Of a stretch of 35,456 nucleotides of DNA, positions 4,396 to 30,700 are shown piece by piece; within the stretch, counting starts at the first letter, position 1; every line of letters starts with the position of its first letter. Source of the stretch: a virus. The notes under the pieces were generated by a model. It was not told the origin of the DNA and made no database searches. It saw only the letters and a program-made list of their open reading frames with translations. The position numbers and the translations under genes are program-made. The stretch covers positions 1 through 35,456 of the IMG/VR virus record IMGVR_UViG_3300020205_001947; one strand, 5' to 3'.

Positions 4396-4701
4396 ATGTC
4401 AAAAGAGTTATCAGCAAACAGCGACAGAGTTATTGTCAAGCCTGTTGAATCAGGAGAAGAAAGGTTCGGAAGTATTATCATTCCGGATATGGGAAAAGAA
4501 AAACCTGAGATGGGTGAAGTAGTTTCCACAGGTCCAGGACGCCAGTCCGAATTTGGACAATTTATCAGAGTAGAAGCTAAAGTAGGAGACATTGTTTTGA
4601 TTCCTAAAATTGGAACCATTCGAATTGACTTCGACGGACAAGAGTACTTTATACTTCCAGATAGAGAAATTTTAGCAACAATCAAAAAAGCACAAGAGTA
4701 G
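4396..4701 (+). CDS. groES: GroES-like co-chaperonin
   Basis: A 101-residue protein with the GroES fold pattern. An N-terminal strand (LSANSDRVIVKPVE) is followed by the mobile loop with its hydrophobic clamp (GSIIIPD, about residues 26-32) that docks on GroEL. EKPEMGEVVSTGPG and the C-terminal strand YFILPDREILATI complete it. The length is close to the usual 95-100 residues. It is two bases from groEL, giving the classical groES-groEL order. In phages such chaperonins can fold capsid or other virion proteins; that use is inferred. Confidence 0.93.
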   Translation: MSKELSANSDRVIVKPVESGEERFGSIIIPDMGKEKPEMGEVVSTGPGRQSEFGQFIRVEAKVGDIVLIPKIGTIRIDFDGQEYFILPDREILATIKKAQE

Positions 4702-4703
4702 TT

Positions 4704-6347
4704 ATGAGCAAACAAATTAGTTTTGGATCAGAGGCAAGAGAAAAATTAGCTTCAGGAGTAAATCAATTAGCAGATGCAGTCGTATGTACATTAGGACCAT
4801 CAGGTAGAAATGTTTTCATTCAACACCAACAAGGTAACCCAACTTCAACTAAAGATGGAGTTACAGTAGCACAGGAAATCTTCTTAGAAGATCCTATTGA
4901 AGATATTGGAGCACAAGCTGTAAAGCAAGTTTCAATTAAAACAGGAAAGCTAGCTGGAGATGGAACAACTACTGCAACACTACTTGCAAGAGAAATATAC
5001 ATTCAAGGATTAAGTGAACTAGAAAATTCAAATGCAGTAGAAATCAAAAGAGGAATTGATATTGCAACTAGAGAAGTTGTCAAGTATCTTCAAAAACAGT
5101 ATTCAAAAGAAATTACTGATGAAGAGCAAATCAAACAAGTAGCAACAATCTCAGGTAACAATGATCCAGAGGTAGGAAATCTCATTGCAACAGCAATGGA
5201 CAAAGTTGGTAGAGATGGATTAGTGACCATTGAAGAATCTAAAACAGGAGAGACTTATCTTGAAACTGTAGAGGGTATGCAATTCAATAGAGGGTACAAA
5301 TCTCCATACTTTGTTACGGACAACAGTACTATGACTTCAGTATTGAATAATCCTTTGATCCTTATCACAGATAAAAGATTGATGAATATCAAAGAGATGC
5401 TTCCACTATTGGAATCAGTATCACAACAAAATAAGGACTTACTTATCATTGCAGATGATATCGACGGAGAGGCTTTATCAACACTTGTTGTAAATAAGAT
5501 GAGAGGAATTCTTAGAGTAGTAGCAGTTAAAGCTCCTGAATTTGGAGACAAGAAGAAAGCTATGCTTGAAGACATTGCAGCTCTTACTGGAGGTACAGTT
5601 GTATCTGAGGAGAAAGGAATGAAGCTAGACAAATTTGATTTACAATGGTTTGGTAATTCAAGAAAAGTAACAGTAGGAAAAGATGATACTACCATTGTAG
5701 ATGGTAAAGGAACTGAAGAAGCTATTACAAAAAGAATCGAAGAGCTAAAGGAACAAATCGAGAATACAGTTTCACCTTATGAGATTGAAATCCTACAAGA
5801 CAGACTAGCAAAACTTATCGGAGGAGTAGCTATGATCCATGTTGGAGGTCATACCGAAGTTGAAATGAAAGAGAAAAAAGATAGAGTTGACGATGCTCTT
5901 CATGCTACAAAGGCAGCTCTTGAAGAAGGAATACTTCCAGGTGGAGGAATCGCTTTACTGAATGCAGCAGCATACTTAGCAGGAATCTTAGAAGGAGAGG
6001 TAACAAATCATCCAGATCAAGAAAAAGGTATCAATATTGTAATGAGAGCAATCACTAAACCATTCGAACAGATCCTTTTAAATGCAGGAGAAACATTAGA
6101 AACTATTGAAGCAAGAAGAGTTGTATTATCTTTAGAGGATAGTAACTGGCAAGGCTTTAATCCTAGAACAGGACAGTACGTAGATATGCTTGCAGAAGGA
6201 ATTATCGATCCAACTAAAGTAACAAGACTAGCATTAGAGAATGCAGCATCAGTTGCAGGAACAATGTTAATCACAGAATGTGTTATTTCAAACATAAAAG
6301 AAAAAGATGAACAAGGAGCAGGAATAGATCCTTCTCAATTCATGTAA
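4704..6347 (+). CDS. groEL: GroEL-like chaperonin
   Basis: A 547-residue group I chaperonin, of normal length. The ATP site is intact: TKDGVTVA (Asp52 equivalent), GDGTTTATLLARE, and EMKEKKDRVDDALHATKAA (Asp398 equivalent), followed by EEGILPGGG. The apical domain EGMQFNRGYKSPYF and the hinge glycines are recognisable. The C-terminus ends GAGIDPSQFM, without the long GGM tail of many bacterial GroELs. The start is GTTATGAG, a context shared with several other genes here. It is co-transcribed with groES and followed by an Hc1-like gene. A complete phage-borne chaperonin pair is uncommon. Confidence 0.96.
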   Translation: MSKQISFGSEAREKLASGVNQLADAVVCTLGPSGRNVFIQHQQGNPTSTKDGVTVAQEIFLEDPIEDIGAQAVKQVSIKTGKLAGDGTTTATLLAREIYIQGLSELENSNAVEIKRGIDIATREVVKYLQKQYSKEITDEEQIKQVATISGNNDPEVGNLIATAMDKVGRDGLVTIEESKTGETYLETVEGMQFNRGYKSPYFVTDNSTMTSVLNNPLILITDKRLMNIKEMLPLLESVSQQNKDLLIIADDIDGEALSTLVVNKMRGILRVVAVKAPEFGDKKKAMLEDIAALTGGTVVSEEKGMKLDKFDLQWFGNSRKVTVGKDDTTIVDGKGTEEAITKRIEELKEQIENTVSPYEIEILQDRLAKLIGGVAMIHVGGHTEVEMKEKKDRVDDALHATKAALEEGILPGGGIALLNAAAYLAGILEGEVTNHPDQEKGINIVMRAITKPFEQILLNAGETLETIEARRVVLSLEDSNWQGFNPRTGQYVDMLAEGIIDPTKVTRLALENAASVAGTMLITECVISNIKEKDEQGAGIDPSQFM

Positions 6348-28501: not shown

Positions 28502-28768
28502 ATGAGAAAGTTAACAATTTTAAAGACGGTTGCATTTTTTATTGGATGGTTATTGTCAATCTTATACATACCAACAGGACTTCACTTAATGAGCAGTCCA
28601 AGTAATGTTAAACTTATCTTAGGTATCTTATTTGCAATAGGAACAATAGGTGGTGCATTTCATTTTGCTTTTAAGTTTAGAGAGAGTGCAGCTAAGTTAG
28701 TTAGTGAAAGTAGAGAGAGAAGGTTAGAAAAAATTAGAGAACAATTTAAAAAAGATAACGAGATATGA
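28502..28768 (+). CDS. small two-helix membrane protein
   Basis: An 88-residue protein. Two transmembrane helices (about 6-27 and 36-56) are followed by a highly charged C-terminal helix (ESRERRLEKIREQFKK). Overlaps the next gene by 4 nt. Function unknown. Confidence 0.7.
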   Translation: MRKLTILKTVAFFIGWLLSILYIPTGLHLMSSPSNVKLILGILFAIGTIGGAFHFAFKFRESAAKLVSESRERRLEKIREQFKKDNEI

Positions 28769-28947
28769 TATTTTTAACTATATTATTATTTATTGCTATC
28801 TTTCTAGCAATAGTTCATGAAATTATATTTGTATGGGAATATGGTACGCCTCCAAAAGATAAGGATGTGCTTGAGATGTGGGAAAAGTGTAAGGATAGTT
28901 ACAATGAATTAGATCGGTTTGCTTGTATGGTTAGTGCGGAAAAATAA
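28765..28947 (+). pseudogene. 5' part of a phage membrane-protein gene split by the cassette array
   Basis: As read, 60 residues: a transmembrane helix (about 2-22, FLTILLFIAIFLAIVHEIIF), then a charged helix. Only the first 50 codons (28765-28914) are ancestral; the last nine residues (from RFACM) are encoded by the inserted palindrome. Joining 28914 to 30476 gives one open frame (ELD to QTYND), a 124-residue protein. The truncated form might still be made as a short membrane protein. Confidence 0.7.
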
Positions 28948-29041
28948 GCCGAATCACTCCATACAAGACTAAGCAATCCAAGTACAAAATCAACATTAAA
29001 TTAAACCAAATACCGCATTAATTATACAAGCTGTTAGTAGC
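28915..29041 (-). repeat. attC-like palindrome A
   Basis: Arms GCTTGTATGGTTAGTGCGG (28921-28939) and CCGCATTAATTATACAAGC (29013-29031) pair with two G-T-type differences, around a loop of about 70 nt; GTTAGTAGC follows. It is about 80-85% alike to palindrome C by eye. It lacks a tag on its outer side because that side abuts phage DNA, which is what the end of an inserted array should look like. Confidence 0.68.
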
Positions 29042-29085
29042 TGGACGGATTATTAAAACGAAAATTAACTTATAAAAATAAAATT

Positions 29086-29370
29086 ATGTCAATCAAAAAA
29101 TTAAAATACGGAAATGTTGAAGATGTTACCGTTGTAGAGTTTGGAAAAGGAACAGTTTCTTTAGTTAATACTCAAAATGAGAATTACAAATTATTGTTGA
29201 TTAAAGAAAAGGAGTTTTCCCCAATTGGAGAAATTGGAGAATTTAAAAGTACCACAGATGAATTTGAACCGCAAATTGTACTTGCTTTTAAAAATAGAGA
29301 ATCATTTGATGTTTTCAAAGAATTTATAAACAACATCGAAACTGATTTCGATTATGAAAACGAGTTGTAG
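29086..29370 (+). CDS. cassette 1 protein, unknown function
   Basis: A 94-residue, beta-rich acidic protein (VEDVTVVEFGKGTVSLVNTQ; PQIVLAFKNRESFDVFKEF; ending DFDYENEL). No known motif. It lies wholly between the matching cassette tags, and an A/T-rich leader of about 40 nt precedes it. Its base use (more GAT/GAA/TTT and fewer AGA/GGA codons) differs from the neighbouring phage genes, as expected for a host-derived cassette. The gene is antiparallel to the recombination orientation inferred for the array. Confidence 0.7.
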   Translation: MSIKKLKYGNVEDVTVVEFGKGTVSLVNTQNENYKLLLIKEKEFSPIGEIGEFKSTTDEFEPQIVLAFKNRESFDVFKEFINNIETDFDYENEL

Positions 29371-29374
29371 TCTT

Positions 29375-29468
29375 GCTACTAACGGTTGCGCTTGGTGCAG
29401 GTTGCTAAGCAAATCGTGAATAGAAAGAAAATGTTTCTGCAACTTGCTCCAAACGCTTGTTATCACTC
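29375..29468 (-). repeat. attC-like palindrome B
   Basis: GCTACTAAC (end of cassette 1) is followed by an imperfect palindrome: left GCGCTTGGTGCAGGTTGC (29388-29405), right GCAACTTGCTCCAAACGC (29439-29456), then GTTATCACTC (start of cassette 2). It is shorter (about 75 nt) and unlike A and C except for the ends AACGGTT and GCTTGTTA. This variation between sites within one array is typical of attC families. Confidence 0.68.
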
Positions 29469-29540
29469 GTTTTTTTATTTATTTACAATTTTTATAAATA
29501 ATATTTGTAAATTAATTAGGTTTATACAAATATTAATAAC

Positions 29541-29548
29541 TATATTTG
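29541..29548 (+). promoter_or_regulatory. -7 box of a Bacteroidota promoter in cassette 2
   Basis: TATATTTG matches TAnnTTTG exactly, 26 nt before the 29575 ATG; a consensus -33 TTG is not found at the right distance. The 100-nt AT-rich leader of this cassette suggests that it carries its own promoter. Confidence 0.4.
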
Positions 29549-29574
29549 TAAAAGAAATTTAAACTTATAACAAA

Positions 29575-29826
29575 ATGGAAAATTTAAAAGAATTATTGAA
29601 AAGCGGTAAAGAAGTTGTTTTTAATAACGAAAGAACTTTTAACACCGATGAAGGTTTTAGAGTTGCCTTATGTAGTTTTAGAGATGAAGCTCGTAATAGT
29701 TTGGCAAATGGATTTAAAATTGAATTCAACGGAGCAATAGTTGTTTCATCAACTCGATTTGATGTTTTTGAAAGAAAACTAGAACAACTAAAAAAAGATT
29801 GGAATTTAGAATTAAAATCTTGGTAA
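29575..29826 (+). CDS. cassette 2 protein a, unknown function
   Basis: An 83-residue alpha/beta protein (NLKELLKSGKEVVFNNERTF, then EGFRVALCSFRDEARNSLAN, IEFNGAIVVSSTRFDVFERK). It resembles small host cassette proteins only in size and composition. The stop overlaps the next ATG (TAATG), so the two form a coupled pair; a two-gene cassette could be a toxin-antitoxin or partner pair, but no known motif supports this. Confidence 0.7.
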   Translation: MENLKELLKSGKEVVFNNERTFNTDEGFRVALCSFRDEARNSLANGFKIEFNGAIVVSSTRFDVFERKLEQLKKDWNLELKSW

Positions 29827-30038
29827 TGAACAAAAAACTATATCACATAGAATTTAAAAGTGCTTCCGATAATGAGAAGCACTTTTACTACGGAGATTTA
29901 ACAATCTTATGCAATACTCACGAAATTGGAATATCAAAATTCACTCTTGACAGATGGAATTTTGAAACGCCTTTCGAGAATGAAATTTGCATTATTCGGA
30001 AAAACGAACTCGTTACCAGTAAACGTTCTGTAAAATGA
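29826..30038 (+). CDS. cassette 2 protein b, unknown function
   Basis: A 70-residue protein starting at the ATG at 29826, beta-rich with several aromatic residues (LYHIEFKSASDNEKHFYYGD; KFTLDRWNFETPF). Its stop codon overlaps the right cassette tag GAGTGATAAC by two bases, so the reading frame ends exactly at the cassette boundary. Function unknown. Confidence 0.68.
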   Translation: MNKKLYHIEFKSASDNEKHFYYGDLTILCNTHEIGISKFTLDRWNFETPFENEICIIRKNELVTSKRSVK

Positions 30039-30178
30039 GTGATAACGGTTCGCTTGTATGGTTAGTGCGGAAAAGTAAACCGAAACACTCCGTTAAAGAC
30101 CAAATAATTCAAGTACAAAATCAACTAATAAATTAAACCAAATACCGCATTAACTATACAAGCTGTTAGCGGATGTGG
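30037..30178 (-). repeat. attC-like palindrome C
   Basis: Tag GAGTGATAAC, then arms GCTTGTATGGTTAGTGCGG (30052-30070) and CCGCATTAACTATACAAGC (30145-30163), then GTTAGCGGATGTGG. The left arm is identical to that of palindrome A over 19 nt and the inner 70 nt are close. Repetition of one palindrome at two cassette joints argues for a specific recombination site. Confidence 0.7.
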
Positions 30179-30229
30179 CTTTTAACGATAAACTTCTGGG
30201 CGGAGTGATAAATCCCAAACCAATATACT

Positions 30230-30424
30230 ATGAGTGCAAGAAACAAATGCGGTTATTTTAGAATAGCCCACGAGCCAACAAAATACGATACTTACTTTGT
30301 GAAAACAAAATGTGGAACTTATGAGTTTGCTCATTTTAATCAGGATGGATGGACTATTTTAGGGGATAATAAAGGAGCTACTCCGATAGCGTGGACTGAA
30401 ATACCTGTAACTGATTTAACTTAA
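30230..30424 (+). CDS. cassette 3 protein, unknown function
   Basis: A 64-residue protein, aromatic and Thr/Lys-rich: YFRIAHEPTKYDTYFVKTKC, then GTYEFAHFNQDGWTILGDN and a WTEIPVTDLT end. Likely a small beta-sheet. It lies between GTTAGCGGATGTGG and its complement. Short for confidence, but its frame and start are clean. Confidence 0.65.
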   Translation: MSARNKCGYFRIAHEPTKYDTYFVKTKCGTYEFAHFNQDGWTILGDNKGATPIAWTEIPVTDLT

Positions 30425-30438
30425 TTTTAGTTGGCTTT

Positions 30439-30464
30439 GGCGGTAGTTCTGCGGTTCTACTGCC
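30439..30464 (+). repeat. hairpin at the end of cassette 3
   Basis: GGCGGTAG (30439-30446) can pair with CTACTGCC (30457-30464, one G-T pair) with an inner loop of about 10 nt. It lies between the cassette 3 stop and the right tag. It lacks a T run, so is more likely a transcript-end or recombination structure than a normal terminator. Confidence 0.4.
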
Positions 30465-30475
30465 ATATCCGCTAA

Positions 30476-30700
30476 CAAACATATAATGATCAATTTAGAT
30501 TGTACAAAGGTAAGGGATACTACGATCCTACAATTATTAAGTTTAACTACAGTCTGCTATGGTTTGGTCACATTAAAGAGGTAGGAGTGCTTCCAAGATG
30601 GTATAAATCTTCAAAGATAATCAAACAGAGATTCAATGAGGAAATAAAAAATTCAAAGTATACTGTAACAAAGAGAGACAAATTAGGATTAGATAAATAA
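30476..30700 (+). pseudogene. 3' part of the phage gene split by the cassette array
   Basis: An open frame of 74 codons beginning QTYNDQFRLYKGKGYYDP, basic with a Trp-rich middle (YSLLWFGHIKEVGVLPRWYK), ending RDKLGLDK. It has no ATG near its start; a TTG at 30500 is the only alternative. Joined to 28914 it continues the reading frame of the 50-codon 5' part without a gap. It is probably untranslated now unless it is read from the TTG. Confidence 0.68.

Follow-up and report, generated by a model that had tools for sequence, protein, structure and literature searches.

Anatomy of the cassette array

The window (i.e. the whole stretch of 35,456 nt that was analyzed) is a fragment of an Immutovirus-like Flavobacterium phage. 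Inside one of its genes lies an array of three cassettes, which spans positions 28916-30476 with a one-base ambiguity (C; 28915-30475). At its start, each cassette bears a tag (GTT plus 6-7 bases), whose exact reverse complement forms its end; hairpin-forming linkers sit ahead of the genes. All features of the array are given for the + strand. Unit 1 starts with the attC-like linker 1 (28916-29032; 117 nt; fold z −3.1 on the + strand), close copies of which are present in other phage contigs. The body of cassette 1 follows (29033-29383; tag GTTAGTAGC at 29033 and GCTACTAAC ending at 29383), with an ORF of 94 aa (29086-29370) that had no family match. The attC-like linker 2 (29384-29458; 75 nt; z −2.8 on the + and −3.3 on the − strand) leads to the body of cassette 2 (29459-30046; tag GTTATCACTC at 29459 and GAGTGATAAC ending at 30046). 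This cassette contains two ORFs, the first (29575-29826; 83 aa) with weak matches only, and the second (29826-30038; 70 aa) matching phrog_10608, of unknown function (E = 1.5e-8). Linker 3 (30047-30164; 118 nt; z −3.3 on the + and −1.5 on the − strand) is likewise attC-like, has one 19-bp outer stem, and precedes the body of cassette 3 (30165-30476), whose tag reads GTTAGCGGAT(GTGG) at 30165 and (CCAT)ATCCGCTAAC ending at 30476. Over its 14 nt, this tag shows a single mismatch, at position 11. The ORF of cassette 3 (30230-30424; 64 aa) gave only weak, sub-threshold matches. Overall, the ORFs of the three cassettes gave almost no matches in family searches.

Linkers 1 and 3 resemble each other (83-98%); the hairpin of linker 2 is a different one, with little strand bias in folding. 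For all three, the + strand folds better than its shuffled versions. In 60 first-order shuffles of the window, tag pairs at linker spacing formed chains of at most 2, never of three. A search of Rfam over the array region yielded no match. An earlier note, made from the sequence alone, had described three units bounded by a cassette-specific tag and its own reverse complement and joined by palindromic linkers. Both claims held, with all three tag pairs present, as did its remark that the tags depart from strict GTTRRRY: positions 5-7 of the cassette set do not follow the consensus. Its extent for the array, 28915-30475, was shifted by the one ambiguous base, and the first linker was found to have no upstream tag, because it abuts phage DNA.

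The tag, leader, and trailer of cassette 1 recur around other genes at two further loci (L005 and L089), and the leader of cassette 3 recurs around another gene in L103 and L121. We also noted that a common tag often goes together with a common leader (~40 nt) and trailer (~20 nt) around genes for unrelated proteins (L005, L089, L103, L121, L128, L130, L132, and the window), a pattern of standard ends that looks as if ORFs were swapped between a common leader and trailer. Conversely, a gene shared by L103:753-1159 and L121:9539-9949 (proteins 93% identical) has a common tag in both, and the attC-like linkers ahead of it are quite different.

The array interrupts a phage gene

The array is flanked by the 5′ half (28765-28915, + strand; codons 1-50 of 124) and the 3′ half (30477-30700, + strand; codons 51-124 and stop) of a single phage gene. 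The ORF at 28765 reads into linker 1 and is cut short there. When 28765-28915 is joined to 30477-30700, one open frame of 124 codons results, and intact homologues of this joined gene were found in ~25 related phage contigs without an array, full-length and collinear across the junction. The closest homologues (L009 and L015) are ungapped at this point. No target duplication or deletion was seen beyond the one-base ambiguity. The insertion is thus exact, since the joined flanks restore a frame with intact, array-free homologues. Arrays were absent from all 80 related Immutovirus-like loci examined, and the insertion is known from one contig only. An assembly join is therefore not formally excluded; the exact restoration of the frame argues against it.

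On the strand complementary to the expected folding strand, the target reads G^AT. The idea that this target is attI-like was dropped: scored with a matrix derived from 26 sites, it came only within the top 29% of C-anchored sites. Because it does not score like attI sites, the insertion point is best seen as a secondary target. Relatives of the window's phage reach ~160 kb; since the window is only a 35-kb fragment, a recombinase gene elsewhere in this phage cannot be excluded, and the large relatives lack one. By reading, GroES- and GroEL-like proteins are encoded at 4396-6347 of the window, with a run of glycosyltransferase-like genes further on.

Phage arrays beside a recombinase gene

A search with the linker arm retrieved 24 viral contigs, at least seven of which are true arrays. 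One of them (L089) has 18 cassettes with all genes on one strand, and 52 nt past its last tag lies a gene for a 267-aa tyrosine recombinase that reads away from the array. The search for a nearby tyrosine recombinase suggested in the earlier note thus succeeded in relatives. Relatives of the phage recombinase are encoded at 33 viral loci. A tag pair was detected just upstream of the recombinase start in 22 of the 23 phage-type loci with enough upstream DNA, mostly at 51-52 nt, compared with 3.4% of random positions. In two of the 22, L116 and L131, the automatic search picked a tag pair other than that of the real last cassette, which lies at 53 and 56 nt, respectively. At the junction of array and recombinase side, AAC is directly followed by TACTATATGT, a conserved attI-like sequence that adjoins the last tag. 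In the related loci, this attI-like site lies ~52 nt before the recombinase gene and meets the end of the last cassette at an AAC junction like that of attC; it is absent as such from the window. Among the contigs with the system, those sampled have genes for terminase, portal, and virion proteins. A recombinase plus array also occurs in two 362-kb contigs of jumbo-phage size (L133 and L142), although the recombinase frame of L142 is short (116 aa).

The phage recombinase fails the IntI profile TIGR02249 (145.5 bits; cut-off 265); its best profile match is XerA, likewise under the XerA cut-off. In 149 genomes of one Bacteroidota family, no IntI scored over the cut-off, and the IntI profile hits split at profile positions ~180-238. 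Similarly, the alignment to IntI4 breaks, leaving IntI4 residues 180-258 unmatched. We infer that the IntI-specific domain is absent, because both gaps fit such an absence. The catalytic residues R133, K158, H217, R220, H243, and Y252 are invariant in 16 sequences, and PF00589 matched at 2.5e-35. By its catalytic residues and catalytic fold, the enzyme belongs to the tyrosine recombinase superfamily. Its predicted model (mean pLDDT 87.9, pTM 0.67) aligned best to XerA (Z 22.1), followed by XerH and IntI4 (Z 18.2), among others, with high rmsd in these comparisons arising from domain placement. The likely recombinase of the system is not an IntI; its catalytic role is inferred.

Gain and loss of cassettes in cultivated phages

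Cultivated Baltic Flavobacterium phages differ in what lies between two shared cassettes: a single unit of 728 bp, a single unit of 469 bp, or none. Gain and loss of cassettes here involve exact single units between matching flanks, and the linker remains with the gene downstream of it. The alternative that the linkers are merely dispersed repeats, raised in the earlier note, was not borne out given this exact gain and loss. The arrays of mumin, snusmum, and hattifnatt have a common end at one attI-like site, TACAATATTACATG, and differ in their last cassettes. Mention of integrons or cassettes was not found in PMC7077304 (Nilsson 2020), which deals with the Baltic phages. The recombinase gene is missing from the mumin, hattifnatt, and hemulen phages, from phage 11b, and from the Immutovirus relative. 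As several array-bearing phages lack the gene, supply of the recombinase in trans is inferred.

A chromosomal version in Bacteroidota

The exact linker arm was not found in the bacterial genome-contig collection, and the bacterial side was therefore reached through the recombinase profile. This revealed over 500 relatives in bacterial genomes, mostly of Bacteroidota. Chromosomal arrays lie downstream of the recombinase, which is read towards them: a tag pair was present within ~150 nt of the stop codon in 43 of 61 loci (random positions, 7.8%), and none was found upstream of the gene in 75 loci. Of the 149 genomes of one family, 94 have a recombinase relative at E ≤ 1e-60. Among the 23 best loci from these genomes that leave room for an array, 17 have one. 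Chromosomal recombinases are mostly ~375 aa long, with an N-terminal extension of about 100 residues. Tree building placed the phage enzymes in a supported group together with two bacterial contigs, and two distant viral rows outside it.

The two bacterial contigs within the phage group (L143 and L144) might be prophages. Upstream of the first chromosomal tag, the attI region (L155-L186) shows an imperfect palindrome of ~26 bp, reminiscent of Xer core sites. Contigs assigned to Nitrospirae, Candidatus Sabulitectum, and Micrarchaeota (L187, L198, and L210) also encode relatives with a tag pair close by; wide transfer or binning errors are conceivable here.

Site architecture and gene orientation

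Tags were accepted only if they had GTT followed by A or G and matched exactly over nine bases. Because this filter imposed the earlier bases, only features past position 9 are independent. Across 136 phage and 76 chromosomal cassettes, the ends were complementary over 9-10 bp, broke at position 11, and paired again for 3-4 bp more: position 11 matched in 3% and positions 12-14 in 76-93% of the cassettes. The mismatch in the third tag of the window is thus systematic, being seen across phage and chromosomal cassettes. This end-tag rule is common to both versions; the break at position 11 is G/A in phages and A/G in chromosomes, i.e. a mirror image. With GTT and position 4 imposed by the filter, the GTTRRRY core consensus was not met, since position 5 is mostly T or G and positions 6-7 are free.

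As plain DNA alignment of the linkers was too poor for consensus folding, pairing between arms of the same site was compared with pairing to arms of other sites. Own arms paired far better (33 vs 18 in phages). The predicted recombining strand folded better in both sets (p about 1e-10 in each), namely the + strand for 66 of 82 phage sites and the − strand for 56 of 57 chromosomal ones. Phage linkers resemble the reverse complement of chromosomal linkers, and genes are on the + strand in 132/136 phage and 67/76 chromosomal cassettes. Taken together, the mirrored break, the folding bias, the likeness of the linkers to reverse complements, and the gene strand show that the gene of phage cassettes is inverted relative to its attC-like site, unlike in the chromosomal version and the classical layout, and that the site lies upstream of the gene.

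Relation to known systems

The system shares with IntI integrons (i) tandem cassettes of about one gene each with a hairpin attC of similar length; (ii) complementary cassette ends that stem from one site, a G^TT junction, and a bias towards folding of one strand; and, at the related loci, (iii) an attI beside the gene for a recombinase of the Xer/IntI branch. It differs in that the recombinase lacks the IntI-specific domain and remains under the IntI cut-off, in that the cassette ends comprise 9-10 bp, a fixed mismatch, and 3-4 bp instead of the 7-bp GTTRRRY, and in the inverted gene of the phage cassettes. The earlier note had read the array as integron-like, lacking an integrase, and perhaps of a Bacteroidota class of cassettes carried by a phage. 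The comparative evidence supports this reading of an array with no recombinase beside it and refines it in two respects: in phages the attC-like site is inverted, and the recombinase of the system is not of the IntI type.

Qi et al. 2023 (PMC9892861) described arrays of attC sites without integrase (CALINs) in phages, among them Polaribacter phage P12002L; of two attC sites of P12002L that were tested there, class 1 IntI recombined one. The cassettes of P12002L look like the same class as those of the window, a comparison made by eye only; our automatic chain search missed this phage, whose spacing and tags differ. As in those CALINs, the phage array has no integrase, and the cargo of phage cassettes of this system includes DNA methyltransferases. 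The relevant sections of that paper hold no cognate recombinase of this type, reversed-cassette rule, empty site, or strain-level turnover. Reverse integrons, with intI in reverse orientation as in Spirochaetota (PMC9668308), resemble the chromosomal version in that its recombinase is read towards the array and its genes have the classical direction relative to attC. Unlike in reverse integrons, the recombinase is not an IntI, and in phages it is read away from the array and the genes are inverted. XerA, XerC, XerD, and XerH are the best structural and sequence matches, and the phage form is about their size; in contrast to these, the enzymes described here are linked to cassette arrays, and the chromosomal forms have ~100 extra N-terminal residues. 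In the open-access literature searched (preprints and subscription journals were not covered), no account of this system was found. Integrase-less phage arrays are thus already known, but the non-IntI platform and the reversed cassettes appear undescribed in that literature.

Proposed mechanism and alternatives

Most probably, the window holds three mobile cassettes of an integron-like system of Bacteroidota chromosomes and Flavobacterium phages, with the full mechanism as follows. Each cassette would comprise an attC-like site, which folds as a single-strand hairpin, and a small gene that in phages comes after the site. Insertion would be the work of a XerA-like tyrosine recombinase that lacks the IntI-specific domain and, in the window's phage, is supplied in trans; it would cut the folded strand at AA^C (G^TT on the complementary strand). 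Since both ends of a cassette derive from a single site of the circular form, the end tags would be reverse complements. In the phage gene, a non-attI target (G^AT, complementary strand) may have received the array or its first cassette. The likely benefit would be rapid exchange of small accessory genes, including those for DNA modification and counter-defence. The anatomy, the empty site, the gain and loss of units, the linkage to the recombinase, and the strand asymmetry are shown. Catalysis by the XerA-like enzyme, circular intermediates, supply in trans, and the benefit are inferred, and no recombination was observed.

Three alternatives were considered. The array could be an ordinary CALIN, i.e. 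host-derived cassettes of a classical integron moved by IntI. The integrase-less phage arrays of Qi et al. and the recombination of a P12002L site by class 1 IntI speak for this reading. It is nevertheless highly improbable, as the 149 family genomes lack a gene over the IntI cut-off, dedicated non-IntI recombinases lie at a fixed distance from such arrays, the tags deviate from GTTRRRY, and the cassette genes are inverted relative to the site. The linkers might instead be dispersed palindromic repeats (REP or MITE-like) located between small genes by chance or homing, without any exchange. They do form hairpins and recur in many contigs, but exact cassette-specific inverted end tags and an exact empty site are at odds with this view, single-unit gain and loss in cultivated phages contradicts it, and the recombinase gene at a fixed distance also speaks against it; it is virtually ruled out.

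According to the remaining alternative, a different enzyme moves the arrays, and the recombinase merely lies next to them as a conserved gene, with the attI-like site serving it for some other purpose (such as dimer resolution). The resemblance of the enzyme to XerA and XerH, a chromosomal attI that is palindromic like Xer core sites, and the several array-bearing phages without a recombinase gene would fit. We regard this as hardly credible, however, given that the array is tightly linked to the recombinase in two opposite layouts and that the attI-like site abuts the last cassette with the AAC junction of attC.

With the integron-like reading preferred, a bolder version also seems probable, though less firmly so: a second kind of integron would exist in Bacteroidota and their phages, with a recombinase that uses single-strand hairpins without an IntI-specific domain, a relative in ~60% of the sampled genomes of one family, and a phage version that trades counter-defence genes in inverted cassettes. 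The IntI-specific domain is held to be necessary for integron recombination (described as essential in PMC9668308, citing Messier and Roy 2001), and software uses it to recognize integrons; complete integrons in Bacteroidetes were reported to be very rare (PMC9024848). If the bolder reading is true, a common system without the domain would explain the apparent integron poverty of Bacteroidota, a large pool of mobile cassettes would be opened to study, and the origin of the IntI domain would become testable. It would also be a concrete means by which phages could quickly exchange small genes for counter-defence; cultivated phages and hosts are available.

Cargo of the phage cassettes

A counter-defence role of the cargo is plausible; the role itself is inferred and should be taken as a possibility only. 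Such cargo is suggested by the matches to Acb2/Tad1 and Mom: among 93 phage cassette proteins searched against Pfam, two matched the Acb2/Tad1 hairpin domain and one Mom, in addition to nine that matched DNA methyltransferase families.
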